64,000 bases of DNA from positions 1-64,000 of the forward strand of contig NZ_AUAR01000002.1 of assembly GCF_000428825.1 (NCBI RefSeq), read 5' to 3'. The notes below the pieces were generated by a model. That model saw nothing but the letters and a program-made list of their open reading frames with translations, made no database searches and was not told where the DNA came from. The position numbers were made by a program, and so were the translations under genes. The DNA comes from Desulfomicrobium escambiense DSM 10707. GTDB lineage: Bacteria; Desulfobacterota; Desulfovibrionia; Desulfovibrionales; Desulfomicrobiaceae. Each line of letters opens with the position of its first letter. Positions within the stretch are counted from its first letter, which is position 1. Shown here in pieces: positions 42,426 through 58,634 of this stretch.

Positions 42426-42436
42426 GAGTTCTTTTT

Positions 42437-42631: not shown

Positions 42632-43879
42632 ATGAACCCATATCTCATCATCGTCCTCTCCTCCGTCATCCTGGGCGCAGGCTGGAGCCTCTTCCTTGAG
42701 TGGCTCAACCTCCAATCCCTCGCCCCGTCCGCCCCACCTCTGCTCGCCGACGTCCACGACCCGCAGGCCTACCGCCGCTCCCAGGACTACGCCCGCGCCC
42801 GCGGCGCATGGGACATGATCGAGCAGACCGTAGGCACGGCGGCCACCCTGGCCTTCATCCTGGCGGGGGGCTTTCCCCTGGCCGACCGACTGGCCCGCAT
42901 CGGCGACAGCGACATCCTGACAGGACTGGCCTTCTTCTGCCTGCTCTTCGCCGGCTCGGAACTGCTGGGGTTGCCCTTCTCCATATATAGGACCTTTGTG
43001 CTCGAGGCCCGCTTCGGCTTCAACACCACCACGCCAGGCACCTTCATTCTGGACAGGCTCAAGGGGTACCTCCTGGCCGCCGCCCTGGGCCTGACCCTGC
43101 TGGCCGCGGTGCTCTGGCTCTTCTCGTCCTTCGGTCCATGGGCCTGGACGCTGTGCTGGGCGGTCACGACGATCTTCTCCGTTGCCCTGACCTTCCTCGC
43201 GCCTTCCCTGATCATGCCCCTCTTCAACACCTTCACGCCCCTCGAGGACCGCAATCTGCTGGACAGGCTGCGGGACCTGGCCCGGCGCACGGGTTTCGAC
43301 CTCGGCGGCGTCTTCGTCATGGACGGATCAAAGCGGTCCACCAAGGCCAACGCCTTCTTCACGGGCCTGGGACGCACCAAGCGCATCGCCCTCTACGACA
43401 CGCTGCTGGCGGCCCATGAGGCCGACGAGATCGAGGCCATCCTGGCCCACGAAATCGGACACTACCGCCTGGGGCACATCACCAGGGGGCTCGTCCTGTC
43501 CATCCTGCAGACGGGGTTGCTCCTCACCCTGATGGGCCAGGCGATCACCCTGCCGGGACTGTACGAGGCCTTCGGCATGACCGCCATGCCCGTGCACGCG
43601 GGCCTGGTCTTCTTCCTCCTGCTGTATTCCCCGGTGTCGCTGGTGCTGACACCATTCTTCGCCGGGCTCTCGCGCCGCCGCGAATTCGAGGCCGACAGCT
43701 TCGCCGCGGCGCACCTCCCCTCGCCCGAGCCCCTGGTCCGCGCCCTGAAGAAGATATCCAGCCAGAGCCTGGCCAACCTCACCCCGCACCCCTGGTACGT
43801 CTTCTTTCATTACAGCCATCCCCCGCTGGGCGCGAGGATCGCGGCCCTGGCAGACTCCGGCAAATCCGCGCGCAAGTGA
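42632..43879 (+). CDS. M48-family (Ste24/CAAX-type) membrane metallopeptidase
   Basis: A 415-residue integral membrane protease with ~6-7 helices. The zinc motif HEIGHY is at ~273-278 and the third ligand in EFEAD (~352), with the Ste24-type N-terminal segment LPFSIYRTFVLEARFGFN. Bacterial members act in membrane protein quality control. GGAG lies six nt before ATG 42632; an upstream ATG at 42548 has no site. Its TGA overlaps the GTG of the following phosphatase-type response regulator (GTGA), so the four plus-strand genes 42.6-45.9 kb look like one operon. Confidence 0.9.
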   Translation: MNPYLIIVLSSVILGAGWSLFLEWLNLQSLAPSAPPLLADVHDPQAYRRSQDYARARGAWDMIEQTVGTAATLAFILAGGFPLADRLARIGDSDILTGLAFFCLLFAGSELLGLPFSIYRTFVLEARFGFNTTTPGTFILDRLKGYLLAAALGLTLLAAVLWLFSSFGPWAWTLCWAVTTIFSVALTFLAPSLIMPLFNTFTPLEDRNLLDRLRDLARRTGFDLGGVFVMDGSKRSTKANAFFTGLGRTKRIALYDTLLAAHEADEIEAILAHEIGHYRLGHITRGLVLSILQTGLLLTLMGQAITLPGLYEAFGMTAMPVHAGLVFFLLLYSPVSLVLTPFFAGLSRRREFEADSFAAAHLPSPEPLVRALKKISSQSLANLTPHPWYVFFHYSHPPLGARIAALADSGKSARK

Positions 43880-45075
43880 CGGCCGTCTTTGCAATTCCGC
43901 CGATTTCGGCTATCCACGCTGCCATGCACTCCACCCCAAGCCAGGCGCGCACCGTGAATGACACGACACCCTGCATCCTGATCGTCGACGACGAACCGCT
44001 GAACATCAAGCTGCTCGACATCGTGCTTACCAAAGGCGGCTACCGCACCATTTCGGCCACCAGCGGACCGGCCGCGCGCGCCGCGGCCCTGGAGCAGTCG
44101 CCGGACCTCATCCTCCTCGACGTGCTCATGCCCGGCGAGGACGGTTACGTCACCTGCGAACTGCTCAAGCACGACCCCCGGACCTCGGACATCCCCGTCA
44201 TCTTCATCTCGGCCCTGACGGACACTTCCAGCAAGGTCCGCGGCCTGGAAGTCGGCGGCGTGGACTTCGTGTCCAAACCCTTCGAGAAGGCCGAGGTCCT
44301 GGCGCGGGTCAAGGTGCACCTCAAGCTGCGGCTGACCTACAAGGCCCTGATCGAAGCCCAGGCCCAGCGCCTGGCCCAGGTCCAGGACGCCCAGCAGGCC
44401 CTCCTGGTCCAGCCCGGCGACCTGCCCGAGGCGGGTTTCGCCGTGCACTTCGAGCCAGTCCTGGAGGCGGGTGGCGACTTCTACGACGTTCTGCGCGTGG
44501 GCGGCGCGTCCTTCGACTACATCGTGGCCGATGTCAGCGGGCACGACCTGGGCACGTCCTACGTGACCTCGGCCCTGAAGGCCCTCTTCAGCCAGAACTG
44601 CAACGTGGTCACCTCCCCGTCCGAGAGCCTGACCATGATCAACAGCGTCCTGTGCCGCATCCTGACCGGCGGCACCCACATCACGGCGGGGTTCGCCCGC
44701 CTGAACCGCGAACAGCGCACCCTGCACTACGTCAACGCCGCCCACCCCGCCCCGGTCCTGCTGCGCGCCGACGGCGGCGTGGAGACCCTCCAGGCCACGG
44801 GGGACCTGCTCGGCGTGTTCGACTCGGTCCTGTTCGAAGCCCTGTCCATTCCCGTGAACCCGGGCGACCGGCTCTTCATGTACACCGACGGACTCATCGA
44901 GGGCTTCGGCGACGAAAAGATGACCCGGGAGGAAGGCCTGGAACGCCTTACCGCGACCTGCGCCGCCCATCGCGGCCTGCCAATGGCCCGGGCCGTGGAG
45001 GCAATCCACGCCGCCCTCGTTCCCCCCGGCGCGCCGCGCGGGGACGACACCATCCTGCTGGCCCTGGAGGTCTGA
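43876..45075 (+). CDS. RsbU-type response regulator: receiver plus PP2C phosphatase
   Basis: A ~399-residue cytosolic protein. The receiver domain begins CILIVDDEPLNIKLLD, with Asp82 (LDVLMPGEDG) as the phosphoacceptor and Lys in DFVSKPFEKAE. A short coiled linker leads to a PP2C/SpoIIE-type Ser/Thr phosphatase domain with GGDFYDV, VADVSGHD, TAGFARLN, NAAHPAP and RGDDTILLALEV. Activated by a histidine kinase, it would dephosphorylate an anti-sigma-factor antagonist. The start is uncertain: GTG 43876 overlaps the protease stop, while ATG 43924 also lies before the receiver domain and neither has a clear ribosome site. It is coupled with the RsbW-like gene 2 nt downstream. Confidence 0.88.
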   Translation: MTAVFAIPPISAIHAAMHSTPSQARTVNDTTPCILIVDDEPLNIKLLDIVLTKGGYRTISATSGPAARAAALEQSPDLILLDVLMPGEDGYVTCELLKHDPRTSDIPVIFISALTDTSSKVRGLEVGGVDFVSKPFEKAEVLARVKVHLKLRLTYKALIEAQAQRLAQVQDAQQALLVQPGDLPEAGFAVHFEPVLEAGGDFYDVLRVGGASFDYIVADVSGHDLGTSYVTSALKALFSQNCNVVTSPSESLTMINSVLCRILTGGTHITAGFARLNREQRTLHYVNAAHPAPVLLRADGGVETLQATGDLLGVFDSVLFEALSIPVNPGDRLFMYTDGLIEGFGDEKMTREEGLERLTATCAAHRGLPMARAVEAIHAALVPPGAPRGDDTILLALEV

Positions 45076-45077
45076 AC

Positions 45078-45491
45078 ATGTTCGACTTCACGCCCCTGCA
45101 CCACGGCTTCGATCTGGAGATGGACACGGACCTGAGCAACGTCGACCTCTGCGTGGAGCGCATCCGGCTCTTCCTGGAGGAGCGCGGGGAGCAGGGACAC
45201 CTCTTCGCCGTCTCCCTCCTGGCGAGGGAGGCCCTAAACAACGCCATGATCCACGGCAACGGACTGGACCCGGCCAAGCGGGTATCCTTCAGGTTCACCG
45301 CCACGGACGGAGGGTACGATCTGGAAGTGGAGGACCAGGGACCGGGCTTCGACTGGCAGGGACACATGCAGGTCAGCAGCGGCGTCGACGACATCCGCGG
45401 GCGGGGGCACGAAATCTACCGCAACTACGCCCGCGCCGTCAGTTACAACGACCGGGGCAACGCCCTGAGACTTGAATACCGGAGGGAGTGA
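45078..45491 (+). CDS. RsbW-like ATP-binding anti-sigma/serine kinase protein
   Basis: A 137-residue GHKL ATPase-fold protein. The N-box is AREALNNAMIHGNG and the G-box VEDQGPGFDW with the GRGHEIY lid. These are the HATPase_c_2 motifs of RsbW/SpoIIAB-type kinases. GGAGG precedes the ATG. Together with the RsbU-type phosphatase it forms two parts of a partner-switching pathway, but no STAS antagonist or alternative sigma factor is encoded beside it, so the third partner must be elsewhere. Confidence 0.85.
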   Translation: MFDFTPLHHGFDLEMDTDLSNVDLCVERIRLFLEERGEQGHLFAVSLLAREALNNAMIHGNGLDPAKRVSFRFTATDGGYDLEVEDQGPGFDWQGHMQVSSGVDDIRGRGHEIYRNYARAVSYNDRGNALRLEYRRE

Positions 45492-45883
45492 TGCACAGCT
45501 TTCAGGTGGAGACCGACGCCAGGGAGGTGATGATCGACATCACCGGCCGCCTGGAGGAACTGCTGCGGGAGTCCGGCGCGCAGTCCGGGCTCATGACGGT
45601 CTACACGCCGCACACGACAACGGGCCTGACCATCAACGAAGGGGCCGACCCCGACGTTTGCCGGGACATCCTGGCCCATCTGCGGGTCATGGTGCCGAGG
45701 CACGCGGGCTTCCGCCACGCCGAAGGGAACTCCGACGCGCACATCAAGGCCACGCTCCTGGGCTCGTCGGTGCAGATCATCGTCGAGCGGGGGCGACTCG
45801 TGCTCGGGACCTGGCAGCACGTCTTCCTCGGGGAGTTCGACGGGCCCCGCAGGCGCACCCTCCAGGTCACGATCCTGTCCTGA
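45491..45883 (+). CDS. YjbQ/UPF0047 family protein
   Basis: A 130-residue protein of the widespread YjbQ family. TVYTPHTTTGLTINEG and RHAEGNSDAHIKATLLG hold the conserved His/Asn/Asp residues, and WQHVFLGEFDGPRRR closes the fold. Family members are annotated as secondary thiamine-phosphate synthase or unknown; the true role is unsettled. The ATG at 45491 overlaps the RsbW-like stop by 1 nt, and GGAGGGAG sits just before it. It ends 3 nt before the convergent gpsA stop. Confidence 0.9.
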   Translation: MHSFQVETDAREVMIDITGRLEELLRESGAQSGLMTVYTPHTTTGLTINEGADPDVCRDILAHLRVMVPRHAGFRHAEGNSDAHIKATLLGSSVQIIVERGRLVLGTWQHVFLGEFDGPRRRTLQVTILS

Positions 45884-45886
45884 CCC

Positions 45887-46879
45887 TCACTCCTCGCGCA
45901 AAGGTCGCGTCATCAGCTCGCGCACGGCTTCGGCCGGGTTCTTGCCCTCGAAGAGCACCGCATGCACCTGCCCGGTGATGGGCAGCTCGATGCCGAGCTT
46001 GCGGCCCAGGGCGAACACGGCTTCCGTCGTCTTGACCCCTTCGGCCACGTTGTGCATGCCCCCCAGGATCTCGTCGAGGGTCTGCCCGCGGCCGATGGCC
46101 AGACCGACGCGGCGGTTGCGGCTCAGGTCGCCCGTGCAGGTCAGGACCAGGTCACCCATGCCCGAGAGGCCCATGAAGGTGGCGGAGTTGGCGCCCAGGG
46201 CCGCGCCCAGGCGCGACATCTCGGACAGGCCGCGGGTGATGAGGGCCGCGCGCGCGTTCTGGCCGAAGCCCAGGCCATCGGAGATGCCCGAGGCGATGGC
46301 CATGATGTTCTTGACCGCCCCGCCCAGCTCCACGCCCGTGACGTCGGCGTTGACGTAGACGCGGAAGGTCTCGGTGGAAAAGAGGGTCTGCACCCGGTCG
46401 GCCAGATCCGCATCCGCGCAGCCCAGGGTCACGGCCGTGGGCAGGCCCGCCACAACCTCCGTGGCGAAGGACGGTCCCGAAAGCACCGCGTACCGGGGAT
46501 CAAGGCCGGCAAGCTCGGCCGCGACCACCTGGCCCATGGTGCGGAACGTCCCCAGCTCCACGCCCTTGCTGGCGCAGACGAAACCGGCGCCCGCGGGGAA
46601 CAGCGCCCTGTTTTCGCGCAGGAAAGCGCCCAGGTTCTGGCACGGCACGGCCAGCACGACGCACCGGGCGTCCTTGAGCACGGCCGCCAGGTCCGCGCTG
46701 GCCCGCAGGTCCCGGCACAAGGCCTGCCCCGGGAGATAGCGGGAGTTGGTGCCGGACTCGACGATTTCCCGCGCCGCGTCTTCCCTGCGCGTCCACAGGC
46801 ACGCGTCCTCCCCTTTCCGGGCCAGCACGTTGGCCAGGGCCGTGCCCCAGCTTCCTCCTCCAAGCACCGCGACGTTCAC
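45887..46879 (-). CDS. gpsA: NAD(P)+-dependent glycerol-3-phosphate dehydrogenase
   Basis: A 330-residue cytosolic enzyme making sn-glycerol-3-phosphate for phospholipid synthesis. The Rossmann motif GGGSWGTALA is at ~7-16. VLSGPSFATEV, the catalytic-Lys block GAVKNIMAIASGISDGLGFG and the signature SGMGDLVLTCTGDLSRNRR are all present. The start is GTG at 46879, six nt after GGAGG; the frame extends further upstream without similarity. It is a single minus-strand gene, convergent with the yjbQ operon and divergent from the tetrapyrrole genes. Confidence 0.97.
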   Translation of the reverse strand: MNVAVLGGGSWGTALANVLARKGEDACLWTRREDAAREIVESGTNSRYLPGQALCRDLRASADLAAVLKDARCVVLAVPCQNLGAFLRENRALFPAGAGFVCASKGVELGTFRTMGQVVAAELAGLDPRYAVLSGPSFATEVVAGLPTAVTLGCADADLADRVQTLFSTETFRVYVNADVTGVELGGAVKNIMAIASGISDGLGFGQNARAALITRGLSEMSRLGAALGANSATFMGLSGMGDLVLTCTGDLSRNRRVGLAIGRGQTLDEILGGMHNVAEGVKTTEAVFALGRKLGIELPITGQVHAVLFEGKNPAEAVRELMTRPLREE

Positions 46880-47032
46880 GCAACCCTCCAGGTTTCCTCG
46901 ATGTCGGCAAGACGGCACTATCGAGGATGCGCCCGTTTCTGTAAAGGGTCCTCTTGTCAGCATATGGCGAAACGGGTAAGGAGCGACCTCGAAACATGAC
47001 CGGAAGCCTCCGGCGCAACACGAGGAATAGCC

Positions 47033-47503
47033 GTGCATTTCACCCAGACCGAACACGAAATCCTACGCATCGTCCAGGACACCCTGCCCGACAGCGCCAC
47101 CCCCTACGCGGACATCGCCCGCCAGGCCGGCGGCACCGAGGAGGAAGTCCTCGAACTGCTCAAGAAACTGAAGAAAGGCGGCCAGATCCGCCGCTTCGGC
47201 GCCACCCTGCGCCATCAGCAGGCCGGGTACGGCTTCAACGCCATGGTCGCCTGGTACATCGAGGAGGGCTTCGACCCTGACGAGGTGGGCCGCATCATGG
47301 CCCGGCGCCCGGAGATTTCCCACTGCTACCTGCGCCCCAACTGCATGGACTGGCCCTACGACATGTACACCATGATCCACGGCAAGAGCCGCGACGACTG
47401 CATGCAGGTCGTGCGCGAGCTCGTGGAGCAGACCGGCGTGACGCAGTACGAAATGCTCTTCAGCATCAAGGAGCTGAAGAAGACGTCCATGGAATATTTT
47501 TAG
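47033..47503 (+). CDS. Siroheme decarboxylase subunit (AhbA/AhbB-type, Lrp-like fold)
   Basis: A 156-residue protein of the AsnC/Lrp-like group that includes NirD/L/G/H and AhbA/AhbB. The N-terminal helix-turn-helix ([20 protein letters not shown]) is followed by [41 protein letters not shown] and the terminal KKTSMEYF, all characteristic of siroheme decarboxylases rather than regulators. These enzymes convert siroheme to didecarboxysiroheme in the alternative heme pathway of sulfate reducers. I cannot decide between A and B subunits from memory. The start is GTG with GAGGAA upstream. hemL follows 22 nt downstream, supporting a tetrapyrrole role. Confidence 0.85.
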
Positions 47504-47525
47504 CCCCGCATTTGGAGAAAGCCCC

Positions 47526-48794
47526 ATGACCAGATCCCAGGAACTCTTCGAGAAAGCCCAGACCCTCATCCCCGGCGGCGTGAACAGCCCCGTGCGCGCC
47601 TGCCGCAGCGTCAGTTGCGACCCGCTCTTCATCGCCAGGGCCTCGGGCAGCAAACTCGTGACCGAGGACGGACAGGAGCTGATCGACTACGTCATGTCCT
47701 GGGGCCCCATGCTTCTGGGACACAACCATCCCGACGTGGCCGCGGCCATCGCCGCCACGGCCCAGGGCGGCACGAGCTTCGGCGCGCCGTGCCGCCTGGA
47801 GGTCGAACTGGCCCAGGCCGTGGTGGACGCGGTGCCGGGCATCGACATGGTCCGCATGGTCAGCTCGGGCACCGAGGCGACCATGAGCGCCCTGCGCCTG
47901 GCCCGGGGGTACACGGGCCGAAACGGCGTGATAAAATTTCACGGCGGCTATCACGGCCATGCCGACGCCTTCCTGGCCAGCGCCGGCTCGGGCGTGGCCA
48001 CGCAGTCCATCCCCGGTACGCCCGGCGTGCCCCAGGACGTGGTCAAGCACACCCTCCTGGCCCACTACAACGATCTGGACGCCGTCAAAACCCTGTTCGC
48101 GAACCACGGCCACGACATCGCGGCGGTCATCGTCGAGCCCGTAGCCGGCAACATGGGGATGGTCCTGCCCAAGCCCGGATTCCTGGAAGGTCTGCGCGAA
48201 CTGACCCGGGCCTACGGCGCGCTGCTGATCTTCGACGAGGTCATAACGGGCTTCCGCGTGGCCTTCGGCGGCGCCCAGCAGGCCTTCGGCATCGACCCCG
48301 ACCTGACCTGCCTGGGCAAGATCATCGGCGGCGGCCTGCCCGTGGGCGCCTACGGCGGCAAGCGCGAGATCATGAGCCACATCGCGCCCAGCGGCACCGT
48401 CTACCAGGCCGGCACCCTCTCGGGGAACCCGTTGGCCATGGCCGCGGGCCTGGCCACCCTGAAGGCCCTGGCGTCCCGCGACTACGCGGCCCTGGCCGTT
48501 CGCACCGAGGCCTTTTCGCGGGAACTCGAGAACATTTTGCACAGCAAGGGCGTCCCGGTCACGCGCAACCACATCGCCTCCATCTTCACCCTGTTCTTCA
48601 CCGAAACGCCGGTGACGGACTTCCCATCGGCCCAGACGGCCGACAGCGGACTTTTCGTCTCCTACTACCAGCAGATGCGCGCGCAGGGCATCTATCTTGC
48701 ACCGTCCGGTTACGAATGCGCCTTCACGTCCTTCGCCCACAGCGACGAAGACCTGGAACGCACCTTGGACGCCGCGAAGAGGGTCAGGTTCTGA
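47526..48794 (+). CDS. hemL: Glutamate-1-semialdehyde 2,1-aminomutase
   Basis: A 422-residue PLP enzyme that makes 5-aminolevulinate, the first committed tetrapyrrole precursor by the C5 route. [12 protein letters not shown] at the N-terminus, [16 protein letters not shown], the PLP-lysine region [16 protein letters not shown] and [16 protein letters not shown] are diagnostic. The length is standard. It follows the siroheme decarboxylase-type gene, and cytochrome c3 lies ~100 nt further with its own promoter, linking precursor synthesis, heme branch and a tetraheme product. Confidence 0.97.
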
Positions 48795-48819
48795 AGTGGA
48801 ACCCAATTTCTCGGCATCC

Positions 48820-48849
48820 TTGACTGAAGACCAAGACCGTCGATATAAA
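48820..48849 (+). promoter_or_regulatory. Sigma70-type promoter of cytochrome c3 gene
   Basis: TTGACT (48820-48825), an 18-nt spacer and TATAAA (48844-48849), the best -35/-10 pair noticed in this GC-rich window. It lies ~50 nt before the start of the cytochrome c3 gene, consistent with high constitutive expression. Confidence 0.7.
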
Positions 48850-48899
48850 CGTCCCAGCTTGTGCTTTTTGTAACGTTTCTTTCTGGAGGTAGAAAGAGG

Positions 48900-49328
48900 A
48901 TGAAAAAATCACTGTTGTTGAGCCTGATCTGCGCGGCGCTCCTGTCCCTGATCGCCGCCCCGGTCCTGTTCGCCGCCGACGCCCCCAAGGATGACTACGT
49001 CATCAAGGCCCCCGAAGGCATGAAGACCAAGGAAAAGGACGGCAAGCCCGGCGCTCTGCAGAAGTCCGTTGCCTTCCCGCACTCCAAGCACGCCGCCGTG
49101 GAGTGCAAGGAATGTCACCACACCCTTGACGCCGACGGCGGCAAGGTCAAGCAGTGCACGTCCGCCGGCTGTCACGACTCTCTGGAGGCTCGTGGCAAGG
49201 ATAACGCCAAGGACGTCAAGCTGGTTGAGAACGCCTTCCACACTCAGTGCATCGAGTGCCACAAGGCTCTGAAGAAGGAAAACAAGCCCACCGGCCCCAC
49301 CGCCTGTGGCAAGTGTCACACCAAGTAG
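48900..49328 (+). CDS. Periplasmic tetraheme cytochrome c3
   Basis: A 142-residue precursor; the mature ~118-residue protein carries four hemes and is the periplasmic electron partner of hydrogenases. The signal peptide [20 protein letters not shown] ends near VLFA-ADAPK. Heme motifs in order are CKECH, CTSAGCH (CX4CH), CIECH and CGKCH, and the axial-ligand histidines [10 protein letters not shown] and NAFHTQ are present. This motif spacing and the ADAP-DDYVI start closely match Desulfomicrobium cytochrome c3 as I remember it. ATG 48900 has GGAGG and AGAGG upstream. Strong promoter before, terminator after: monocistronic. Confidence 0.97.
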
Positions 49329-49378
49329 GGTAGCACCCGAAATTTCGATCAGCACAAGCAAAGGCCGGCCTTTGGTTC

Positions 49379-49415
49379 GCCCCTGCCGCAGACCCTGCGG
49401 CAGGGGCTTTTTTTT
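49379..49415 (+). terminator. Rho-independent terminator of cytochrome c3 gene
   Basis: GCCCCTGCCGCAG (49379-49391) pairs perfectly with CTGCGGCAGGGGC (49395-49407) around a 3-nt loop, then eight T. A very strong 13-bp stem. Confidence 0.96.
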
Positions 49416-49510
49416 CGGCGGGAAATCGGATAGCCCGCACCGTACATTGCCCTTGCCGACGCTTCCTGCTAGGAAATGCCGATGCCCCAACGTCAAGAAA
49501 GGATCTCGCC

Positions 49511-51223
49511 ATGAACACACCGCACAACCCGACGGACGACATCTTGGAACTCACGGACATCGTGGAGGAAGGAGCGCCCGAGGCGCCGGGCCTCGACTTC
49601 GCCATGGACAGGGCGGTGGACGCCAGAAGCCTGGACGAGGAACTCGACAACCTCCTGCGCGACACGGACTCCACGCTGAAGGCAGTCCATGCGGGCGAAA
49701 CGGACATTCCTTTCGACACGCTCCCTGCCGAAAGCCGGCAGGCCGGCGTGACCAGGGCCGCGCAGTCGGCATCGCCGCAGGCGGACCTCTCCGACCTGGA
49801 TGATCTTTTCGGCTCGCTACAGCTCGACGACGCCAACTCGACTCAGGACTCCCTGGACATGCTCCTGGACGAAAAGTCGCAGGGACAGGCTGTCGCGACG
49901 GATATTCCCGCAACCGAAGAGATCATCGATCTCGACCTCGAGGTCCCCGGACTCGACGCCGACGACTCGGCCCCGGACCTTCTGGAACTGACCGACGAAC
50001 TGCTGGCCGACATCCCCGAAACCGTGCTGGTCCCGCCTGCGGACAGCCAGGCGATCAAGGCCGCGGAAGCGCCCATATTTCCCTCTCCGGAAGGCCTTGA
50101 TCTCGACATCGAAACCGTGACCCCACGATTCGAGACGGCCGTCGAACTTCAGCCCGAGCCGGCGCAACCGACAGCCGCGGCTCCCGAACAGCCGGAGCCG
50201 TCCGTTTCCCAGGCCGAACTCGAAATCCTGAGCGCACGGCTGGACGCCCTGGAGGCCAGGCCCGTGCCCGAGCCGGAAATCAGGCCGGAGCAGGTGCTCG
50301 GCGCCCTGCCCGACTCCCCCGACGACCTGCCCATGACACGGGCCCTGCGCGAAGGCATCATGCAGGCCGTGGACGACAGGCTCGCCGCAGCGGCTTCGAA
50401 CCCGGAACTGGCGAATCTCCGCCAAGCCGCCACGGAGCTCTCGGCACGCATCGCGGCCCTGGAGACCCGGCCGGAACCGAGCGTGAAAATCAGCCCGGAA
50501 CAGGTGCTGGCCGCGCTGCCCGACTCCCCCGATGACCTGCCCATGGCCCGGACCCTGCGCGACGGCATCATGCAGGCCGTGGACGACAGGCTCGCCGCAG
50601 CGGCTTCGAACCCGGAGCTGGCGGATCTCCGCCAAGGCGCCACGGAGCTCTCGGCACGCATCGCGGACCTGGAGACCCGGCCGGAACCGACCGTGGAAAT
50701 CAGCCCGGAGCAGGTGCTGACCGCGCTGCCCGACTCTCCCGATGCCCTGCCCCTGGCCCGGGCCCTGCGCGACGAGATTCTCGCCACCGTTGAGGCGAAG
50801 TCCGCCCTCATGGTGCAGCCCGAAGAAACGGCCAAGCTGCAGCAGGACCTCCTCGCCATGCAGAATCAGATCGACGCCATGCCGGAAATCCTGGCCAAGC
50901 TGGCTTCGACGACCGCACCGGCGCTGCAGGAACTGGAAAGCGGGCTCGGCGCCCTGCGCACCATGGCCCAGGGGCTGGAACAGAGCCTAGCCGGCGTACA
51001 GGCGGCCATAGCCCGCAAGGACGCCGACCTGGCCGACCTGCGCGAAGGCGAGGAGCGGCTGCGTGAGGAGATCGAGGCCCTGGCCGCCAGGCTGGAGGCA
51101 ATGCCCGCCCCGGACGCACTCAAGACCGAGCTTGAAGCGCATGTCCGGCAACAGGTGCCCGCCGTTGTGGGGCGCGTCATCCGTGAGGAGATCCAGGCCC
51201 TGCTCAAGGAACTGGGGGCCTGA
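49511..51223 (+). CDS. Acidic repeat protein with PopZ-like (DUF2497-type) C-terminus
   Basis: A 570-residue cytosolic protein with no enzymatic motif. The N-terminal third is acidic and disordered-looking, with repeated short motifs DILELTDIVEEG, DLDDLFGSL and DLLELTDEL. Residues ~259-430 are ~2.5 tandem copies of a 70-residue Ala/Leu/Glu-rich unit. A coiled coil follows, and the end is HVRQQVPAVVGRVIREEIQALLKEL, resembling the helical C-terminus of PopZ-type polar organisers ('LP.lVe.lVr.EI'). 'ILELT.vVeeg' motifs also occur in that family. An oligomerising scaffold is a reasonable guess. AAGGA precedes the ATG. It is flanked by terminators on both sides and thus monocistronic. Confidence 0.55.
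   Translation: MNTPHNPTDDILELTDIVEEGAPEAPGLDFAMDRAVDARSLDEELDNLLRDTDSTLKAVHAGETDIPFDTLPAESRQAGVTRAAQSASPQADLSDLDDLFGSLQLDDANSTQDSLDMLLDEKSQGQAVATDIPATEEIIDLDLEVPGLDADDSAPDLLELTDELLADIPETVLVPPADSQAIKAAEAPIFPSPEGLDLDIETVTPRFETAVELQPEPAQPTAAAPEQPEPSVSQAELEILSARLDALEARPVPEPEIRPEQVLGALPDSPDDLPMTRALREGIMQAVDDRLAAAASNPELANLRQAATELSARIAALETRPEPSVKISPEQVLAALPDSPDDLPMARTLRDGIMQAVDDRLAAAASNPELADLRQGATELSARIADLETRPEPTVEISPEQVLTALPDSPDALPLARALRDEILATVEAKSALMVQPEETAKLQQDLLAMQNQIDAMPEILAKLASTTAPALQELESGLGALRTMAQGLEQSLAGVQAAIARKDADLADLREGEERLREEIEALAARLEAMPAPDALKTELEAHVRQQVPAVVGRVIREEIQALLKELGA
50285..50800 (+). repeat. Tandem 210-bp repeat within the acidic protein gene
   Basis: Units at 50285-50494, 50495-50704 and a partial third at 50705-50800. 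Each starts PEQVL.ALPDSPD and continues through MQAVDDRLAAAASNPEL and ATELSARIA.LETRPEP. Units 1 and 2 are nearly identical at the DNA level (e.g. ATGCAGGCCGTGGACGACAG in both), indicating recent duplication and likely copy-number variation. Confidence 0.9.
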
Positions 51224-51330
51224 CCCCGTCCGGCCGGGACGCCCCTTCGGCTCTCGACTCCCGAAAAGGGGCGTGCTAGGAATTTTGAAAACAATGAAGG
51301 GAGGGCTCCAGGGTTTTTCCTTCTTTTTTG

Positions 51331-51388
51331 AACCGCCCGGTTTCCCCAAAGCAGGTCGACACCATTCCCCCCGGGCGGTTTTTTTTTG
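51331..51388 (+). terminator. Rho-independent terminator
   Basis: AACCGCCCGG (51331-51340) pairs with CCGGGCGGTT (51371-51380), with a long ~30-nt loop, followed by eight more T. It closes the repeat-protein transcript ahead of the small ORF at 51416. Confidence 0.8.
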
Positions 51389-51415
51389 TTCCCATGTTCA
51401 ACCAGCGAGAAAGCC

Positions 51416-51607
51416 ATGGACCAGATCCAAAAGCAGGCCCTGCAGGTCGCCAAGGAAATCGTCGTCAAGTTCATCGAGGTGGGACGCATCTCCCCCTCCA
51501 ATTTTTCCGAATACTTCGAACCCATTTACGACGACGTGTACCGCACCGTGACCAAGACGGGCCCTGCGCCGACCACAGACAAGGACGCCTCCGTTGAATC
51601 CGAATGA
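51416..51607 (+). CDS. Small uncharacterised protein upstream of ubiE
   Basis: A 63-residue protein: MDQIQKQALQVAKEIVVKFIE then VGRISPSNFSEYFEPIYDDVY and a polar tail. It is predicted all-helical and soluble with no Cys. The ordered core and ribosome site (GCGAGAAAG region, weak) plus overlap with the next gene support coding. Its stop lies 14 nt inside ubiE, suggesting coupling to menaquinone genes. I do not recognise the family. Confidence 0.65.
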   Translation: MDQIQKQALQVAKEIVVKFIEVGRISPSNFSEYFEPIYDDVYRTVTKTGPAPTTDKDASVESE

Positions 51608-52295
51608 CCACGGGAAGCGGGTTTCCGGCCTCTTCGACAACATCGCCGCCTGGTACGATTTCCTCAATCACTTCCTGAGCGTGGGCCAGGACATCTACTG
51701 GCGCCGCCGCCTGGTACGCTGCGTCCGCCCCGGGGACACGCGCACGGCGCTGGACCTGGCCGCCGGCACCCTCGACGTGAGCCGGGAGATCCGCCGGCAG
51801 CACCCGGAACTGCGGGTACTGAGCCTGGACTTCTCGCGGGCCATGCTCTGCAAGGGCAAAAGCAAGATCGTCGGGGAACCGGCCATCCTGCCCGTCCAGG
51901 CCGACGGGCGCGCGCTGCCCCTGCCCGACGGGTGCGTGGACACCGTGACCATCGCCTTCGGCATCCGCAACATCCTGCCCAGGACCGACGCCTACCGCGA
52001 AATCCTGCGCGTGCTGGCCCCCGGCGGCCGCCTGTGCATCCTGGAGTTCGGCACGGGCAAGGCCAGGATCTGGCAGGGCCTGTACAACTTCTACCTGGGC
52101 ACGGTGCTCCCGCGCATCGGCCGCTTCTTCTCCAAGAGCCCAGAGGCCTACCAATACCTGGCCGACACCATCCTGGCCTTTCCTGATGCCCGGGCCCTGG
52201 CCGGCGAACTCGCCGGAGCCGGCTTCGACCAGGTCGGCTATGAGGCCCTCAGCTCCGGGATCGTGTACATCCATGTGGCCAGGAAGCCGGAGTGA
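51594..52295 (+). CDS. ubiE: Demethylmenaquinone methyltransferase (UbiE/MenG family)
   Basis: A 233-residue class I SAM methyltransferase catalysing the last methylation of menaquinone. LFDNIAAWYDFLNHFLSVGQD at the N-terminus, TIAFGIRNILPRTDAYREILRVLAPGG and the C-terminal Y.YLADTI.AFP-type segment are UbiE signatures. The SAM motif I is LDLAAGTLDVS, where the common GTGD is altered to GTLD. The start appears to be TTG at 51594 overlapping the small ORF; no ATG/GTG fits the family N-terminus. Downstream genes mqnB, mqnD and a polyprenyl synthase confirm a menaquinone context. Confidence 0.88.
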   Translation: MNPNDHGKRVSGLFDNIAAWYDFLNHFLSVGQDIYWRRRLVRCVRPGDTRTALDLAAGTLDVSREIRRQHPELRVLSLDFSRAMLCKGKSKIVGEPAILPVQADGRALPLPDGCVDTVTIAFGIRNILPRTDAYREILRVLAPGGRLCILEFGTGKARIWQGLYNFYLGTVLPRIGRFFSKSPEAYQYLADTILAFPDARALAGELAGAGFDQVGYEALSSGIVYIHVARKPE

Positions 52296-52353
52296 ACGCA
52301 CCCCGGAAGGCCTGCCCGCAAACCCCAATAATCCGCTTGAAGCATAAAGAATC

Positions 52354-53664
52354 ATGATCACCTTCGACGACATCGCATCCGGCGCAACCCCCGTTGCCGT
52401 GGTGGGGCTCGGCTATGTGGGCCTGCCCCTGGCCGTGGCCCTTGGAGACCACTTTCGCGTCATCGGCTTCGACATCTCCAGCCGACGCATCGAGGAACTG
52501 CGCAGCGGCCAGGACTCCACCCGCGAGGTGGAACCCGCCCGGCTGACCACGGCCCGGGTCGACTACGCCGACGACCCCGCACGCCTGCGCGAGGCGGGCG
52601 TCGTCGTCGTGGCCGTGCCCACGCCCATCGACGGCAACCGCAAGCCGGACCTGCGGCCCGTTGTCGGGGCCAGCTCCACGGTGGGCGAGAACCTGCGCCC
52701 CGGCAGCATCGTGGTCTACGAGTCCACGGTCTACCCCGGCCTGACCGAGGAGATCTGCGTGCCCCTGCTGGAGCAGAAATCCGGCCTGAAGTGCGGCCGC
52801 GACTTCACCGTGGGATATTCCCCGGAGCGCATCAACCCCGGCGACCGCGTGCACACCCTGGAAAGCATCGTCAAGGTCGTGGCTGGCCAGGACCAGCTCA
52901 CGGCGGACCTCCTGGCCCGCTTCTACGGCACGGTGGTCAAGGCAGGCGTGCACCGCGCGTCGAGCATCAAGGTGGCCGAGGCCGCCAAGGTCATCGAAAA
53001 CACCCAGCGCGACCTGAACATCGCCCTCATGAACGAGCTGGCGCTCATTTTCGACCGCATGGACATCGACACGAACGAGGTCCTGCGGGCCGCGGGCACC
53101 AAATGGAACTTCCTGCCCTTCCGGCCGGGCCTGGTTGGCGGGCACTGCATCGGCGTGGACCCGTACTACCTGACCTTCAAGGCCGAATCCATCGGCTTCC
53201 ACCCCCAGGTCATCCTGGCCGGGCGCCGCATCAACGACGGCATGGGCAAGTTCGTGGCCGAGAAAACCATCAAGGCCATGATCAGCGCCGGCTGCCAGAT
53301 CAAGGGCGCGCGCGTGGGCCTGCTGGGCCTGACCTTCAAGGAGGACGTGCCGGACCTGCGCAACAGCCGCGTGGAGGACATCGTCCACGAACTGTCCGAC
53401 TACCACGTGGAGGTCCTGGTCCACGACCCGTTGGCAGACGCCGCCGAGGCCAAGGACGAGTACGGCGTGGACCTGCTCCCCCTTGACGCCATGAAGGACC
53501 TCGACGCCGTCATCCTCGCGGTCTCCCACGCCCAGTTCGCGTCACTCGACGCCGAACGCCTGGCGGGCATGTTCAGAAACCCTGGCGCCGGGATAATCAT
53601 CGATGTCAAGGGGTTCCTCAACAGGGACGCCCTGTCGCGCCGCTTCACGTACTGGCGGCTGTAG
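52354..53664 (+). CDS. UDP-N-acetyl-hexosamine/UDP-glucose 6-dehydrogenase family enzyme
   Basis: A 436-residue NAD-dependent nucleotide-sugar dehydrogenase, oxidising the C6 hydroxyl to a carboxylate for surface polysaccharide precursors. The Rossmann motif is GLGYVGLPLA (18-27). YESTVYPGLTEE and YSPERINPGD are typical of the WbpO/TviB branch (UDP-GlcNAc or UDP-GalNAc), and the catalytic Cys is in GGHCIGVDPYY (~265). The closing domain has LLGLTFKEDVPDLRNSR. No glycosyltransferase or epimerase is beside it; it is embedded between menaquinone genes without obvious functional connection. Confidence 0.92.
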   Translation: MITFDDIASGATPVAVVGLGYVGLPLAVALGDHFRVIGFDISSRRIEELRSGQDSTREVEPARLTTARVDYADDPARLREAGVVVVAVPTPIDGNRKPDLRPVVGASSTVGENLRPGSIVVYESTVYPGLTEEICVPLLEQKSGLKCGRDFTVGYSPERINPGDRVHTLESIVKVVAGQDQLTADLLARFYGTVVKAGVHRASSIKVAEAAKVIENTQRDLNIALMNELALIFDRMDIDTNEVLRAAGTKWNFLPFRPGLVGGHCIGVDPYYLTFKAESIGFHPQVILAGRRINDGMGKFVAEKTIKAMISAGCQIKGARVGLLGLTFKEDVPDLRNSRVEDIVHELSDYHVEVLVHDPLADAAEAKDEYGVDLLPLDAMKDLDAVILAVSHAQFASLDAERLAGMFRNPGAGIIIDVKGFLNRDALSRRFTYWRL

Positions 53665-53679
53665 GCGGGCGCGGCGACG

Positions 53680-54366
53680 ATGATCATCCTGGCTTGCGCG
53701 ACGGAGCTTGAATGCCGTCACGTCATGACCCGAACGGGACGCAAACCGGACGGGGACACGCGATTCGACTTCGCGGGCCTCGACTTCCTGGCCTGCGTGA
53801 CGGGCGTAGGTCCGGTGGCCGCGGCCCTGCGCGCGGGCGAGCTTCTGGAGCGCCACCCCGCGGCGGCCGGCATCGTCAACCTGGGCATCTGCGGGAGCTT
53901 CGACCCGCGTGCATCTCTGGGCGCTATCTGCGTGGCCAGCGCCGAGATCTGGCCCGAATACGGCGTGCACAGCTCGGACGGGGCCGAGGAGCCCTTCGGT
54001 TTTCAGATGCTTCAGGACCTGCCGCTGCCCCAAGTCAACCGCCTGGAGCTCGACCCGTCGGCCGCAGCCCGCAGCATGGGCCTGCGGCTCCCCGAAAGCT
54101 GGCCGTGCGGCACGAGCCTGACTGTGGCGGGCGTGACGGGCGACCCGCAACGCGCGGCGATCCTCCTGGCCCGCTACGACGCCGCCACGGAGAACATGGA
54201 GGGCTTTGGCCTGGCCCTGGCCGCGCGGCGTAAGGGCATACCCTTTCTTGAAGCGCGGACCGTCTCCAATCCCGTCGGCGTGCGCGACAAGGCGCGCTGG
54301 AACTTCCGCCTGGCCCTGGACTCTCTGGAGTCCGTCCTGCCGACCCTGACCGGAGCTGCCGCATGA
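53680..54366 (+). CDS. mqnB: Futalosine hydrolase
   Basis: A 228-residue nucleoside phosphorylase/hydrolase-fold enzyme that removes the base from futalosine in the alternative menaquinone pathway. VTGVGPVAAALRAGELL, IVNLGICGSFDP and NMEGFGLALAARRKGIPFLEARTVSN (read in parts) fit the MTAN/futalosine hydrolase family, with the Glu of NMEGF in the substrate site and Asp/Asn of the C-terminal block. It overlaps mqnD by 4 nt (ATGA). A 5'-methylthioadenosine nucleosidase is the main alternative, made unlikely by the neighbour. Confidence 0.92.
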   Translation: MIILACATELECRHVMTRTGRKPDGDTRFDFAGLDFLACVTGVGPVAAALRAGELLERHPAAAGIVNLGICGSFDPRASLGAICVASAEIWPEYGVHSSDGAEEPFGFQMLQDLPLPQVNRLELDPSAAARSMGLRLPESWPCGTSLTVAGVTGDPQRAAILLARYDAATENMEGFGLALAARRKGIPFLEARTVSNPVGVRDKARWNFRLALDSLESVLPTLTGAAA

Positions 54367-55154
54367 ACCCGCTTTCCGTGGCCATCTCTCCCTGCCCCAA
54401 CGACACCTTCATTTTCGGAGCATGGGTGCTGGGCCTCTCGCCCGCCCCCGCCGGCCGGGACAGCCGTTTTTTCTGGCACGACGTACAGGAGCTCAACCAG
54501 GGCGCACTGAGCGGCGCGTGGGATGTCGTCAAGGTCAGCGCCGCCGCGGCCCTGCGACTGCAGGACAGGTACGCCATCCTGCCCTGCGGCGGAGCCTTCG
54601 GCCTGGAGCACGGCCCCAAGCTCGTCACCCGTGAGGGTTTCCGCGGCGAGCCCCGCCGGATCGCCGTCCCCGGCCTGGACACCACGGCCATGCGCGTCCT
54701 GAACGCGGCATTGCACGGGAACTTCACGCCGGTGCCCATGATCTTCCACGCCATCGTCGACGCCGTGCAGGCCGGCGAGGTCGATGCGGGGCTGCTGATC
54801 CACGAAACGGCGCTGGTCTACGACCGGTACGGTCTGGCCCTGCACACGGACCTCGGTCAGTGGTGGCGCAAGGAGACCGGGGGCCTGCCCCTGCCCTTGG
54901 GCTGCATCGTGGCGAAACGGGAGCTCGGCGACAGCGTCCACGCGGCCCTGGCCGACGGCATCCGCGCGAGCATCCTGCACGCCCGGTCGGACAGGCCGTC
55001 GGTCATGCCTTTCATCGCAGCCATGGCCAGAGAGCTTGACGAGGCCACGCTCGAACAACATATTGCCGCCTACGTGAACGACTTCAGTCTGGACATGGGG
55101 CCAGACGGCCAGGCCGCCCTCAACTTGCTGCAAACATTCCGGGATCTGTCATGA
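54363..55154 (+). CDS. mqnD: 1,4-dihydroxy-6-naphthoate synthase
   Basis: A 263-residue enzyme converting cyclic dehypoxanthinyl futalosine to 1,4-dihydroxy-6-naphthoate. The diagnostic start VAISPCPNDTFIFGAWVLG, KVSAAAALRLQDRYAILPCG (read in parts) and DAGLLIHETALVY match MqnD, a periplasmic-binding-protein-like fold used as an enzyme. It overlaps both neighbours by 4 nt, so mqnB-mqnD-prenyl synthase form one coupled unit. mqnA and mqnC are not in this window. Confidence 0.95.
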   Translation: MNPLSVAISPCPNDTFIFGAWVLGLSPAPAGRDSRFFWHDVQELNQGALSGAWDVVKVSAAAALRLQDRYAILPCGGAFGLEHGPKLVTREGFRGEPRRIAVPGLDTTAMRVLNAALHGNFTPVPMIFHAIVDAVQAGEVDAGLLIHETALVYDRYGLALHTDLGQWWRKETGGLPLPLGCIVAKRELGDSVHAALADGIRASILHARSDRPSVMPFIAAMARELDEATLEQHIAAYVNDFSLDMGPDGQAALNLLQTFRDLS

Positions 55155-56131
55155 ACGACGCCTTCGCCCAACTCAAGGTCGCCTTCCTCAAGGAGCTTCC
55201 GGCCATCAACGCCGCCATCCTGCGGGAGATAGACGCCCTGCACCCGCTGGTCCGGCCCGTGGCCGCGCACGTCATGGACGCCGGCGGCAAGCGCCTGCGG
55301 CCCATGCTGACCGTCCTCTTCGCCCGCGCCCTGAATTTCAGGGGCGACGACCTGTACACCCTGGCCAGCTCTCTGGAATTCCTGCATTCGGCCACCCTGA
55401 TGCACGACGACATCCTGGACAACGCCGACCTGCGCCGCGGCCGGCAGGCCGCCCACATGCGCTTCGGCGTCACCCCGACCATCCTGGCCGGCGACGCCCT
55501 CCTGGCCCTGGCCAACGAAATCGTGGCCCGCACCGGGAACCCGGCCCTGACATCCTGCATCTCCAAAGCCATCATGGAGACGGCCAGCGGCGAGATCATG
55601 GAGATCGCCGCCGTGCGCAACGCGGGCTTAAGCCGGGCCGAATACCTCGAGATCATCACCGGCAAGACGGCCTACCTGATCCAGTCGGCCTGCGAGTTCG
55701 GCGCCATCGCCGCCGGGGCCTCGCAGCGCCAGTGCGTCGCGGCCAGAGCATTCGGCCTGAACCTCGGCATCGCCTTCCAGCTCGTGGACGACGCCCTGGA
55801 CTACACGTCCGAGGCCGGCACCTCGGGCAAGCCCCTGGGCGGCGACCTGCGCGAGGGCAAGTTCACCCTGCCCCTGCTCCTGTACCTCGAATCCCTACCC
55901 GCAAACGAGCGTAGCATCACGGTCCGGGACCTGACCGCAGCTGACCTGCCCGTTGACAGGCAGGACCGGATCATCGCCGACATCGTGACCGGGGGCTTTG
56001 CCGGACGGACCCGCGACGAGGCCAAAACCTACCTGGCACTAGCCAGCCGGGCCCTGGACGTGCTACCCGTGTGCCTGGAAAAAAACCTCCTCGGAGCCAT
56101 GATCGATTTCGTGCTGAAGCGGGACAAATAG
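55151..56131 (+). CDS. Polyprenyl diphosphate synthase
   Basis: A 326-residue trans-prenyltransferase making the isoprenoid side chain for menaquinone. The first Asp-rich motif is LMHDDILDNADLRRG (~84-97) and the second QLVDDALDYTSEAG, with GKPLGGDLREGKFTLPLL following. The residues before the first motif (LEFLHSATL) suggest a long-chain (C30-C40) product of the IspB/HepT type; exact length cannot be fixed. It overlaps mqnD by 4 nt and ends 1 nt before the HDOD-GGDEF gene. Confidence 0.93.
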   Translation: MNDAFAQLKVAFLKELPAINAAILREIDALHPLVRPVAAHVMDAGGKRLRPMLTVLFARALNFRGDDLYTLASSLEFLHSATLMHDDILDNADLRRGRQAAHMRFGVTPTILAGDALLALANEIVARTGNPALTSCISKAIMETASGEIMEIAAVRNAGLSRAEYLEIITGKTAYLIQSACEFGAIAAGASQRQCVAARAFGLNLGIAFQLVDDALDYTSEAGTSGKPLGGDLREGKFTLPLLLYLESLPANERSITVRDLTAADLPVDRQDRIIADIVTGGFAGRTRDEAKTYLALASRALDVLPVCLEKNLLGAMIDFVLKRDK

Positions 56132-56132
56132 C

Positions 56133-58634
56133 ATGACACAACAGGATCGCCTTCCTCCGCGCAATTTCACGACTTCGTTGCGTGCCAGCCTGAAAGCGAC
56201 CTTTTCCCCCGCCACGGCCGGACTCCTCCAGGAAGCGGTCAAACCCGACCCGAATTTCGGGGTCATCGCTTCCATCCTCAAGGCGGACCCCGCCCTGGCC
56301 ACGGCCATCCTCTCCCTGGTCAACTCACCCTACTACGGCCAGACCAGCAAGATTTCGGACCTCCAGCGCGCGGCCATCATCCTCGGCAACAACGAGATCC
56401 TGCGCATCGCCCTGTCCCTCTCCCTGCAGAAGAACCTGAACGCCTCCCTGGAAAAGCACGGCTTCGACACCTTCGCCAACTGGCGGGTCATCGTCTGGGC
56501 GGCCCTGGGCGCGGAACTCATCGCCCGGCGCCTCTGCCCCAAGGAAGCGGAGACGGCATACATCTGCGCCCTGGTCAAGGACCTGTCCCTGCTCCTCTAC
56601 GCCGCCAGCTACCCGGAAGACCTGCGGCCGCTCCTTTCCCGGCCGGACTTCGTCAACACGGGACCGTCCTTCATGTGCTGGCAGGAGTGCCTGCCGGAGG
56701 ATCACTGCGCCCTGACGGCCGAACTCCTCGCCGAATGGAATTTCCCCGCGCACATGGTCGCGGCCATCACCGCCCACCACGACCTCGAAAACCTCTTCGA
56801 CCACCCGCCCCTGACCCAGGCCGTGATCTTCGGCACCCGCTGGGCCGAGGTGGAGTTCCGCACCGACCCAGCCCCCGACGGCCTCGCGCAGCTGCACTTC
56901 CTGCTGAAGAAGGCCGGCGCGCTGCCCCCCGAGGGTGTCGAAGGCCTGCGGCAGCACTGCTCGTCGCTTTTCGCCGAAATGTGCTCGGCCATGAACATCA
57001 CGGAGCTGCCCCCGGAAAACCGCTACTACGACCACTCCCTGCAGGCCATCCAGGACTTCCACTACCAGGCCAAGGAGATCGAGGGGCTGACCGGCGGCAA
57101 CGCGGCCATCGCGACCTGCATCGGGCGGCACCTGCGCTGGAACTGGAACTGCCGCAAGGGGGAGATCATCCTCGGCGCGCCGACCAACAAGCACTGGGAG
57201 CGCTTCGTCCTGGCCGAGGACGGCGTGAGCGGCCCGACCGTCGCGCAGTCCATCAACGACTTCAAATCACACGGCGAGTTCACCGTTCCCCTGGAGACCG
57301 AGGACGGCGTGGCCGGCGAGTTGCGGCTGTCAGGCCTGCAGGGCCCGGGACAGGCCAGGGCCGAGACGGCCCTCTACGCCAGACTGCTGGCCCGGAGCCT
57401 GTGGCGGCAGATCACCACGGTGGCGCAGCTCGAGATCAAGGCGGAGTTACTCGACATCCTGCCCACCGGAGTCGCCCTGCTCGATACGGACGGCCGCATT
57501 CTGCGCGCCAACCCGACTTTCGCCCGCTTCCTGGGCAGTTCCGCCCAGCTCGAGGACAGGCTGCGCGGGGGCATGCAGCTTGAACAGTTCCAGAGCGCCC
57601 GGCACGGGTGGCGCATGTTCCTCCTCGACCCCACGCAAAGCACCCACTGCGTCATACACGCCCCTCTGGGGCCATCCGATGCGCCTTCGTCGCCCTTCGC
57701 CCTTTCAAGCTACAAGATCCGCCAGGGCTCACGAACCAATGTCCTGACCGTGGTGCAGGATCTCAGCGAAATCCGCATCCACGAAATCGAGGCCCTGCAT
57801 CAGCGAGACTTCCTGAACAACCTGCTGTCCACCATGCAGGATCTGGTCATGACCACCGACCGCAAGGGAGTCATCACCTTCGCCTCGGGACGCCATGGCG
57901 CATTCCTGAAAGGCCGCAACCTCTTCACGCTGACACGGCCCATAAACCTGCAGGAAGAGCCCTGGGATATGGAGTTCCTGGAGCAGAGCCAGAACGCCGT
58001 CGAGGTCCAGATCGTCCTCGATGACGAGCACCTGCAGCTGGAGCTGGTTTTTTCCCGGTTTGCCCACGGCGCCGATTACGGTCTCGTCGTCGGCCGCAAC
58101 ATCTCCGCCATCCGCAGGCTGGAGCGCAAAATCCGGGAGCAGGCCCTGTTCGACTCCCTGACCCAGGTCTTCAACCGCCACCACCTCCAGCCCCTGCTGG
58201 AACGCGAACTGTCGAGATCCCGCCGCACCGATACGTCCTTGGGGCTCATCTTCTTCGACATCGACAAGTTCAAGGTCTTCAACGACACCTACGGACACCA
58301 CGGCGGCGACAAGGCCCTGAAGGAACTCGGGCAGCTGCTGCGCAGCGTGCTGCGCAAGGGCCTCGACTTCCCCTGCCGCTTCGGCGGCGACGAGTTCGTC
58401 ATCATTTCGAGCAACTCCAGCGCGGCGAGCCTGCTGACCGTGGCGGAGCGAATCCAGAACGAATTCAAGACCCTGCACAACGGTTCCGTGACGCTGAGCA
58501 TCGGCATGAGCCTGCTCGAGCCCGAGGACACGGCCCATTCCCTGCTTGAACGCTGCGATAAAGCCAATTATCAGGCCAAGGCGCAGGGCGGAAACGCCAT
58601 TGTGCATCTGCAGACCAACACACCAGTAAACTAA
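56133..58634 (+). CDS. HDOD-PAS-GGDEF signalling protein (probable diguanylate cyclase)
   Basis: An 833-residue soluble protein. Residues ~20-220 are an HDOD domain (LSLVNSPYYGQTSKISDLQRA split by family blocks) lacking an HD pair (ALVKDLSLLL). A middle region with a GAF-like fold (~330-430) and PAS-like modules (~440-560 and ~575-670) follow. The C-terminal GGDEF domain begins DSLTQVFNRHHL and has an intact active site RFGGDEF (~750). The upstream inhibitory RxxD is KGLD, so product inhibition may be weak. No EAL domain. It starts 1 nt after the prenyl synthase stop and is perhaps co-transcribed. Confidence 0.9.
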   Translation: MTQQDRLPPRNFTTSLRASLKATFSPATAGLLQEAVKPDPNFGVIASILKADPALATAILSLVNSPYYGQTSKISDLQRAAIILGNNEILRIALSLSLQKNLNASLEKHGFDTFANWRVIVWAALGAELIARRLCPKEAETAYICALVKDLSLLLYAASYPEDLRPLLSRPDFVNTGPSFMCWQECLPEDHCALTAELLAEWNFPAHMVAAITAHHDLENLFDHPPLTQAVIFGTRWAEVEFRTDPAPDGLAQLHFLLKKAGALPPEGVEGLRQHCSSLFAEMCSAMNITELPPENRYYDHSLQAIQDFHYQAKEIEGLTGGNAAIATCIGRHLRWNWNCRKGEIILGAPTNKHWERFVLAEDGVSGPTVAQSINDFKSHGEFTVPLETEDGVAGELRLSGLQGPGQARAETALYARLLARSLWRQITTVAQLEIKAELLDILPTGVALLDTDGRILRANPTFARFLGSSAQLEDRLRGGMQLEQFQSARHGWRMFLLDPTQSTHCVIHAPLGPSDAPSSPFALSSYKIRQGSRTNVLTVVQDLSEIRIHEIEALHQRDFLNNLLSTMQDLVMTTDRKGVITFASGRHGAFLKGRNLFTLTRPINLQEEPWDMEFLEQSQNAVEVQIVLDDEHLQLELVFSRFAHGADYGLVVGRNISAIRRLERKIREQALFDSLTQVFNRHHLQPLLERELSRSRRTDTSLGLIFFDIDKFKVFNDTYGHHGGDKALKELGQLLRSVLRKGLDFPCRFGGDEFVIISSNSSAASLLTVAERIQNEFKTLHNGSVTLSIGMSLLEPEDTAHSLLERCDKANYQAKAQGGNAIVHLQTNTPVN

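Follow-up and report, generated by a model that had tools for sequence, protein, structure and literature searches.

The window analysed here is a stretch of 64,000 nucleotides of Desulfomicrobium escambiense DSM 10707 (contig NZ_AUAR01000002.1). An open reading frame at positions 49511–51223 of its forward strand had been put forward in an initial annotation as a possible PopZ-like polar scaffold. The frame opens and closes as claimed there and is a real gene, with a product of 570 aa. Upstream lies a class III cytochrome c3 gene (48861–49328; Cytochrom_CIII, 4.2e-20), whose product matches the solved chain 2cy3, a structure presumably from Desulfomicrobium, over 116 residues (1.4e-60). A 63-aa frame (51416–51607) and then ubiE are found downstream; the 63-aa frame shows a weak DUF2680 match that stays below the cut-off (E 0.0021). 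A terminator scan of the region returns 5 sites against 3.3 expected, the strongest being a hairpin at 49379–49407. Because this hairpin follows the cytochrome c3 gene, a separate transcript is suggested for the 570-aa gene. The features of the locus, all on the forward strand, are the following.

49379–49407, forward strand: terminator-like hairpin of 13 pairs followed by a T run, between cytochrome c3 and the 570-aa gene
49511–51223, forward strand: candidate PopZ-like scaffold gene, a single open frame with an ATG start, 570 aa
49538–49573, forward strand: N-terminal ELT box, residues 10–21, DILELTDIVEEG, common to the family in the order, the wider family in the phylum and PopZ
49574–50200, forward strand: acidic region with short conserved stretches such as SLDEELDNLLRD, recognised from composition, aligned N-termini and mostly low AlphaFold2 confidence
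49976–49996, forward strand: second ELT box, residues 156–162, DLLELTD, located by a degenerate DNA pattern search
50277–50486, forward strand: repeat unit 1, 210 bp (70 aa), by TRF
50487–50696, forward strand: repeat unit 2, 210 bp, by TRF
50697–50774, forward strand: unit 3, partial, by TRF
50819–51100, forward strand: long helix predicted by AlphaFold2, residues 437–530, read as a coiled coil
51110–51211, forward strand: last helix predicted by AlphaFold2, residues 534–567, containing VPAVVGRVIREEI (residues 549–561, 51155–51193) and aligned to PopZ C-terminal helices

The protein is strongly acidic (D 9.8%, E 10.7%, K 1.8%, R 5.6%), with a net charge of -75 and, by our reading of the sequence, no obvious signal peptide. 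Its acidic N-terminus bears the DDILELTDIVEEG box and is followed by three 70-aa repeats, the last of them incomplete, an extended coiled coil and, at the C-terminus, the helix VPAVVGRVIREEIQALL. The architecture described in the initial annotation, an acidic N-terminus with ELTD motifs followed by repeats and a C-terminal helix, has therefore been confirmed. The AlphaFold2 model has a low mean pLDDT of 59.2, and a second modelled protein gives low-confidence helices in the same way (mean pLDDT 57.6). Residues 1–230 are mostly of low confidence, with the block 41–50 reaching 75, and the acidic region is probably disordered. Helices are predicted after about residue 230, and the ten-residue blocks from residue 441 onward have pLDDT values of 69–95. 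Direct Pfam and NCBIfam scans of the protein return only generic coiled-coil or septation-type families. The likeness to DivIC, EzrA and other coiled-coil septation proteins consists of weak coiled-coil matches below the cut-off, and we know of no protein of the DivIC/EzrA type with the end motifs described below.

The repeats have been delimited by TRF: positions 50277–50774 contain 2.4 copies of a 210-bp unit, with 92% matches, and the sole other array in the window covers 40 bases with a period of 21. The two complete units are 92.4% identical in the TRF register and 90.5% in the codon register. The repeat itself is confirmed, and its earlier description as almost identical units is slightly too strong. 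In the two nearest species (G008 and G014), unit 1 shares 68% and 76% identity with unit 2, while the copies at equivalent positions in these two species are 89.5% identical. The units in the window are 73–79% identical to their positional counterparts in either species. It follows from these within- and between-species identities that the lineage of the window recently homogenised or re-duplicated its first two units. Counted by one pattern, 1 to 3 repeat cores are present in 14 full-length proteins, 13 from the genus and one from the family (G018). The pattern reports a single core in G001, in which a second, diverged core is visible, and the sequence of G006 contains a masked stretch. Since the single count in G001 misses the diverged core, the range in the genus is 2 or 3, and the number differs between species.

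Relatives of the complete protein have been found in 18 of 61 genomes: every one of the 16 genus members has one, and the other two genomes come from the family and from the order. A profile of the C-terminal region (the last ~60 residues) extends the distribution; at E≤0.01 it matches 144 of the 150 order genomes, covering 35 of 36 genera, with one match each in 142 of the 144. For comparison, 41 order loci have been assembled, 40 neighbourhoods from 31 genera and the protein of the window itself. With start codons picked by hand, the members range from 239 to 1383 aa. All 41 carry an R-x-E-[ILM] motif at most 17 residues from the C-terminus, and Arg558 and Glu560 (window numbering) are invariant. 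At the other end, a strict ELT box occurs within the first 60 residues of 32 of the 41, the protein of the window included (shuffled mean 0.035, maximum 1), and members without it show variants such as DDVLDLA or NVDVSDV. Because both ends are conserved across the genus and the order, these features of the protein are more than chance.

An ELTD motif occurs twice in the gene of the window, as DILELTD (from 49538) and as DLLELTD (from 49976). When the 3.78-Mb genome is searched at the DNA level with a degenerate pattern for [DE]-h-h-[DE]-L-T-[DE], 3 places match, two of them inside this gene, and the same pattern written backwards as a control occurs once. The third place lies in a frame that we read as mutS. 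The ELT box ahead of the linker is a feature found in this analysis and has been taken from no paper.

The neighbourhood is largely shared within the order. Of the 41 loci, 37 have cytochrome c3 upstream of the gene and in the same orientation; hemL occurs on that side in 30, and ubiE on the downstream side in 30. A valS gene is absent from positions 42001–58500 of the window and is present at one of the 41 order loci, 3.8 kb away on the upstream side.

Relatives outside the order have been sought with the 41-row C-terminal profile (A4) in 345 genomes of the phylum, 15 from the order and 330 others. All 15 order members are matched, and 28 of the 330 others give weak matches (E 2.5e-4 to 0.05). 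Fifteen of these 28 were opened, and both end motifs are present in L126 and L135 alone; by our reading, the other 13 are NrdR-like, Lon-like, unrelated or too short to judge. Against the Protein Data Bank, A4 gives one match, at an E of 0.46 that corresponds to chance. A profile built from L126 and L135 matches 84 of the 345 genomes at E≤0.05. It recovers the gene of the window in its own genome at 4.6e-4 and the family gene in none of the other 14 order genomes. Thirty non-order loci, the two seeds included, have been read. Their frames of 81 to 443 aa combine an ELT-like box with LPGIVEKVIREEIEKL-like C-termini. The strict ELT box is found in just 10 of the 30, and a looser form in 25 (shuffled mean 0.005, maximum 1), with variants visible to us in the other five. 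After omission of the near-duplicates L144, L146 and L168, the remaining 27 rows form a wider-family profile (A7) that matches 133 of the 345 genomes at E≤0.001, a figure that is not an orthologue count, as many of the weaker matches are receiver-domain proteins or unopened. At this threshold A7 finds the order family gene in none of the 15 order genomes, and its two places in G065 lie elsewhere. When the profiles are aligned to each other by hhalign, the C-termini of the order family and the wider family match with a probability of 93.9% (E 1.6e-7).

The genomic context of the wider family differs from that of the order. Cytochrome c3, hemL and ubiE are found at none of the 20 non-order loci whose neighbourhoods were read out of the 30, and valS lies directly downstream on the same strand at 11 of them. 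The adjacency follows protein length, being present in 11 of 12 long forms (frames of at least 211 aa) and in none of 8 short forms; at the twelfth long form (L256) the sequence stops about 1.3 kb past the gene. In Magnetospirillum, popZ adjoins the genes for valyl-tRNA synthetase and an efflux protein, an arrangement described as similar to that in Caulobacter (PMC6414705). Among the best 80 of 529 confirmed alphaproteobacterial PopZ loci, with a flank of at most 1.5 kb, valS is on the same strand within 36.

PopZ has been described as an alphaproteobacterial protein (PMC9512792, PMC5182065, PMC6414705). In the Caulobacter protein, the helical C-terminal domain and the expanded acidic disordered region balance attraction against repulsion, and the condensate is tuned through the length of the linker and the valency of the helices (PMC9512792). 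The H3H4 segment is a domain that interacts with itself and is enough to bring a fused bait into PopZ clusters (PMC11025332, PMC10547168), while the sites for ParA, ParB and further clients lie in the first 26 residues (PMC5182065).

A sensitive profile search against DUF2497, proposed in the initial annotation as a check, returned nothing on the protein or at its gene across the order. PF10691 (DUF2497, the Pfam model of PopZ) gives no match to the protein at E≤10. Over 150 order genomes it has no match above the cut-off and 35 weak places, none of which is the family gene when compared by eye, and it is absent among the 25 families listed, of 78, for the 41 order C-termini. For the 27 non-order C-termini, by comparison, PF10691 leads the Pfam matches, with 16 of 27 matched (best E 5.1e-4) against 4 of 27 for the next family.

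Profile-to-profile comparisons were made with 71 PopZ proteins extracted from the best 80 of the 529 loci, a sphingomonad-weighted set from which 9 were dropped. By hhalign, the C-termini of the order family match those of PopZ at 74.2% (E 2.8e-5, score 23.9), and the wider-family C-termini match those of PopZ at 92.6% (E 4.7e-7, score 33.5). As these E-values come from single comparisons, the alignments are judged by their controls. None of 200 column shuffles reaches the observed score in either case (maxima 17.6 and 18.3), reversed profiles score 11.2 and 16.3, 96 windows from seven neighbouring protein families reach 18.0 at most, and 26 internal windows of the order family reach 12.1. The alignment with PopZ spans 33 columns and is clear solely around the P ... 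EI part. With just 4 PopZ sequences, the values are 75% for the wider family, 46% for the order C-terminal family and 8.6% for the full-length genus alignment. Searched by hmmsearch against the best 80 of 529 PopZ loci, A7 matches 19 at E≤1, all 19 in the PopZ frame, and two of the eight matches listed sit on the PopZ N-terminal helix; profile A6 matches 34 of the 80, all within the PopZ frame. The order profile matches one of the 80 (E 0.93) over four residues, which is meaningless. At the N-terminal end, 49 of the 71 PopZ proteins, drawn from the same best 80 of 529 loci, contain the strict ELT box (shuffled mean 0.01, maximum 1). The EPSMEEILASIRRII-type client-binding helix of PopZ is absent from the translation of the gene and from the aligned N-termini of the family. 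Along with its charge and low pLDDT, the protein has an overall proline content of 8.8%, compared with 23–29% in the PopZ disordered region (PMC9512792).

Some of the A7 matches may point to a second known polar protein. Among 20 further A7-matched loci opened, 12 have receiver-like N-termini (L271–L278, L280, L282, L286 and L288); Pfam confirms the receiver domain in L280, the one locus run. These 12 proteins continue with an acidic linker and AWEVVPELAETMIKEEI-like C-terminal helices, and 9 of them carry a W-E-x-x-P motif. RomR, known from Myxococcus and its relatives, has been described as a receiver domain joined by an unstructured linker to a C-terminal helix that is rich in Glu, has an invariant Trp and Pro and localises to the poles on its own; the C-terminal region is described as not homologous to characterized domains (PMC3441718). 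The 12 receiver-fused proteins fit this published description and are putative RomR proteins on that basis (PMC3441718). Aligned by hhalign, they match the wider family at 97.7% (score 56.0, reversed 24.5), the order family at 87.6% and PopZ at 82.6%, and none of 150 shuffles reaches the observed score in any comparison. The comparison with the order family is less clean, since one shuffle scores 25.1 against the observed 27.5. Like RomR, the protein of the window has a linker followed by a C-terminal helix that is rich in Glu and contains Pro; it differs in having no receiver domain (no Pfam match to Response_reg) and no Trp in the helix. On these similarities, the helix by which PopZ oligomerises may be a relative of RomR-C.

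The gene in the window is on balance probably that of a divergent PopZ-type scaffold, with a C-terminal self-association helix, an acidic arm bearing the ELT box and a repeat/coiled-coil spacer. Its likeness to PopZ lies in the ELT box, the acidic linker and a helix at the extreme C-terminus with an [LV]-P ... E-I pattern, and the wider family, not the order family, has a popZ-like valS neighbourhood. The differences are the missing EPSMEEILASIRRII-type helix, the lack of a direct DUF2497 match, the cytochrome c3 neighbour, and a protein about three times longer than Caulobacter PopZ, with coiled-coil repeats. The proposal of the initial annotation is thus partly supported. The architecture, the ELT box, the remote hhalign similarity and the wider-family synteny speak for it; the negative DUF2497 search and the missing N-terminal helix do not. 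It holds as a remote similarity and a shared plan, not as family membership.

We infer common ancestry with PopZ, self-assembly, a polar position and client recruitment for this protein. The C-terminal helix would be a self-association element of the H3–H4 kind, and the acidic N-terminal part an extended arm, repulsive or client-binding, with the ELT box as the obvious candidate for a contact site. The repeats and the coiled coil could serve as a variable spacer that sets spacing or valency, with the coiled-coil repeats lengthening or multimerising this spacer. By analogy with PopZ, the protein would assemble at the pole into a condensate or matrix to which other proteins are tethered, and its clients should differ from those of PopZ because the PopZ N-terminal helix is missing. 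A broader proposal, to which we give somewhat less than even credence, is that the PopZ oligomerisation helix, the pole-targeting helix of RomR-C and the Desulfovibrionales C-terminal helix represent a single ancient polar-assembly module that sits at the extreme C-terminus behind an acidic linker. The protein would then be a Desulfovibrio-type pole organiser in which a repeat-tunable coiled-coil spacer replaces the short linker of PopZ.

Other explanations of the locus have to be weighed against a PopZ-type scaffold. The protein could be a cytoplasmic coiled-coil or filament-forming protein unrelated to PopZ, with a C-terminal helix and an ELT box of independent origin. The generic families returned by the direct scans, the predicted long helix and the shortness of the PopZ-matched stretch fit this explanation, as does the failure of the order family and PopZ to find each other by direct sequence search. 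We nevertheless consider it rather unlikely, since internal windows and unrelated decoys score far below the C-terminus against PopZ, the two motifs follow the same order as in PopZ, and the wider family has popZ-like synteny. The conserved neighbourhood could instead point to a scaffold for the adjacent respiratory machinery (the cytochrome c3, haem and menaquinone genes), organising metabolism and not the cell pole. Cytochrome c3 is a periplasmic protein, however, and the product of the gene has no obvious signal peptide; the terminator-like hairpin separates the two genes, and none of the three neighbours is found at the 20 loci read outside the order. A respiratory scaffold therefore seems highly improbable.

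Another unlikely reading, which overlaps with that of a PopZ-type scaffold, is a RomR-like polarity adaptor, whose C-terminal helix would target the pole in the manner of RomR-C, PopZ being the more distant cousin. The order family indeed scores higher in hhalign against the receiver-fused relatives than against PopZ, the wider family higher still, and these relatives fit the RomR description (PMC3441718). On the other hand, the protein has no receiver domain, one shuffle comes close to the observed score, the likeness is to receiver-fused relatives that are putative RomR proteins, and the valS gene next to wider-family members speaks for PopZ.

A scaffold of the cell pole described from a single bacterial class may thus have a broader distribution. 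A valS-linked relative across the Desulfobacterota, if it is a true one, would mean that the origin of a condensate-forming polar hub predates the Alphaproteobacteria; it would also provide the sulfate reducers with a candidate pole organiser and connect PopZ with RomR. In the part of the open-licence literature that was covered, no paper was found that names a PopZ relative in Desulfovibrio or links RomR-C with PopZ. The natural variation in linker and repeat number would offer a ready series for testing how the material properties of a scaffold are tuned.

Some individual frames deserve mention. The best PF10691 match among the 150 order genomes (E 0.001) is a 259-aa frame on the reverse strand (L105), which contains LVRPLVKAWLGSQLPALMNTV, resembling PopZ H3, and lies beside a gene that we take to be qmoC. 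Weak matches over the same part of the profile occur in G088 and G115. Among the non-order relatives, three frames of 81–96 aa (L262, L265 and L267), which do not adjoin valS, contain little beyond an ELT-like box and the C-terminal helix and could be a minimal scaffold. Two frames of 321 aa (L166 and L168) carry four copies of the C-terminal helix motif behind a single ELT box, and would be a natural high-valency version.
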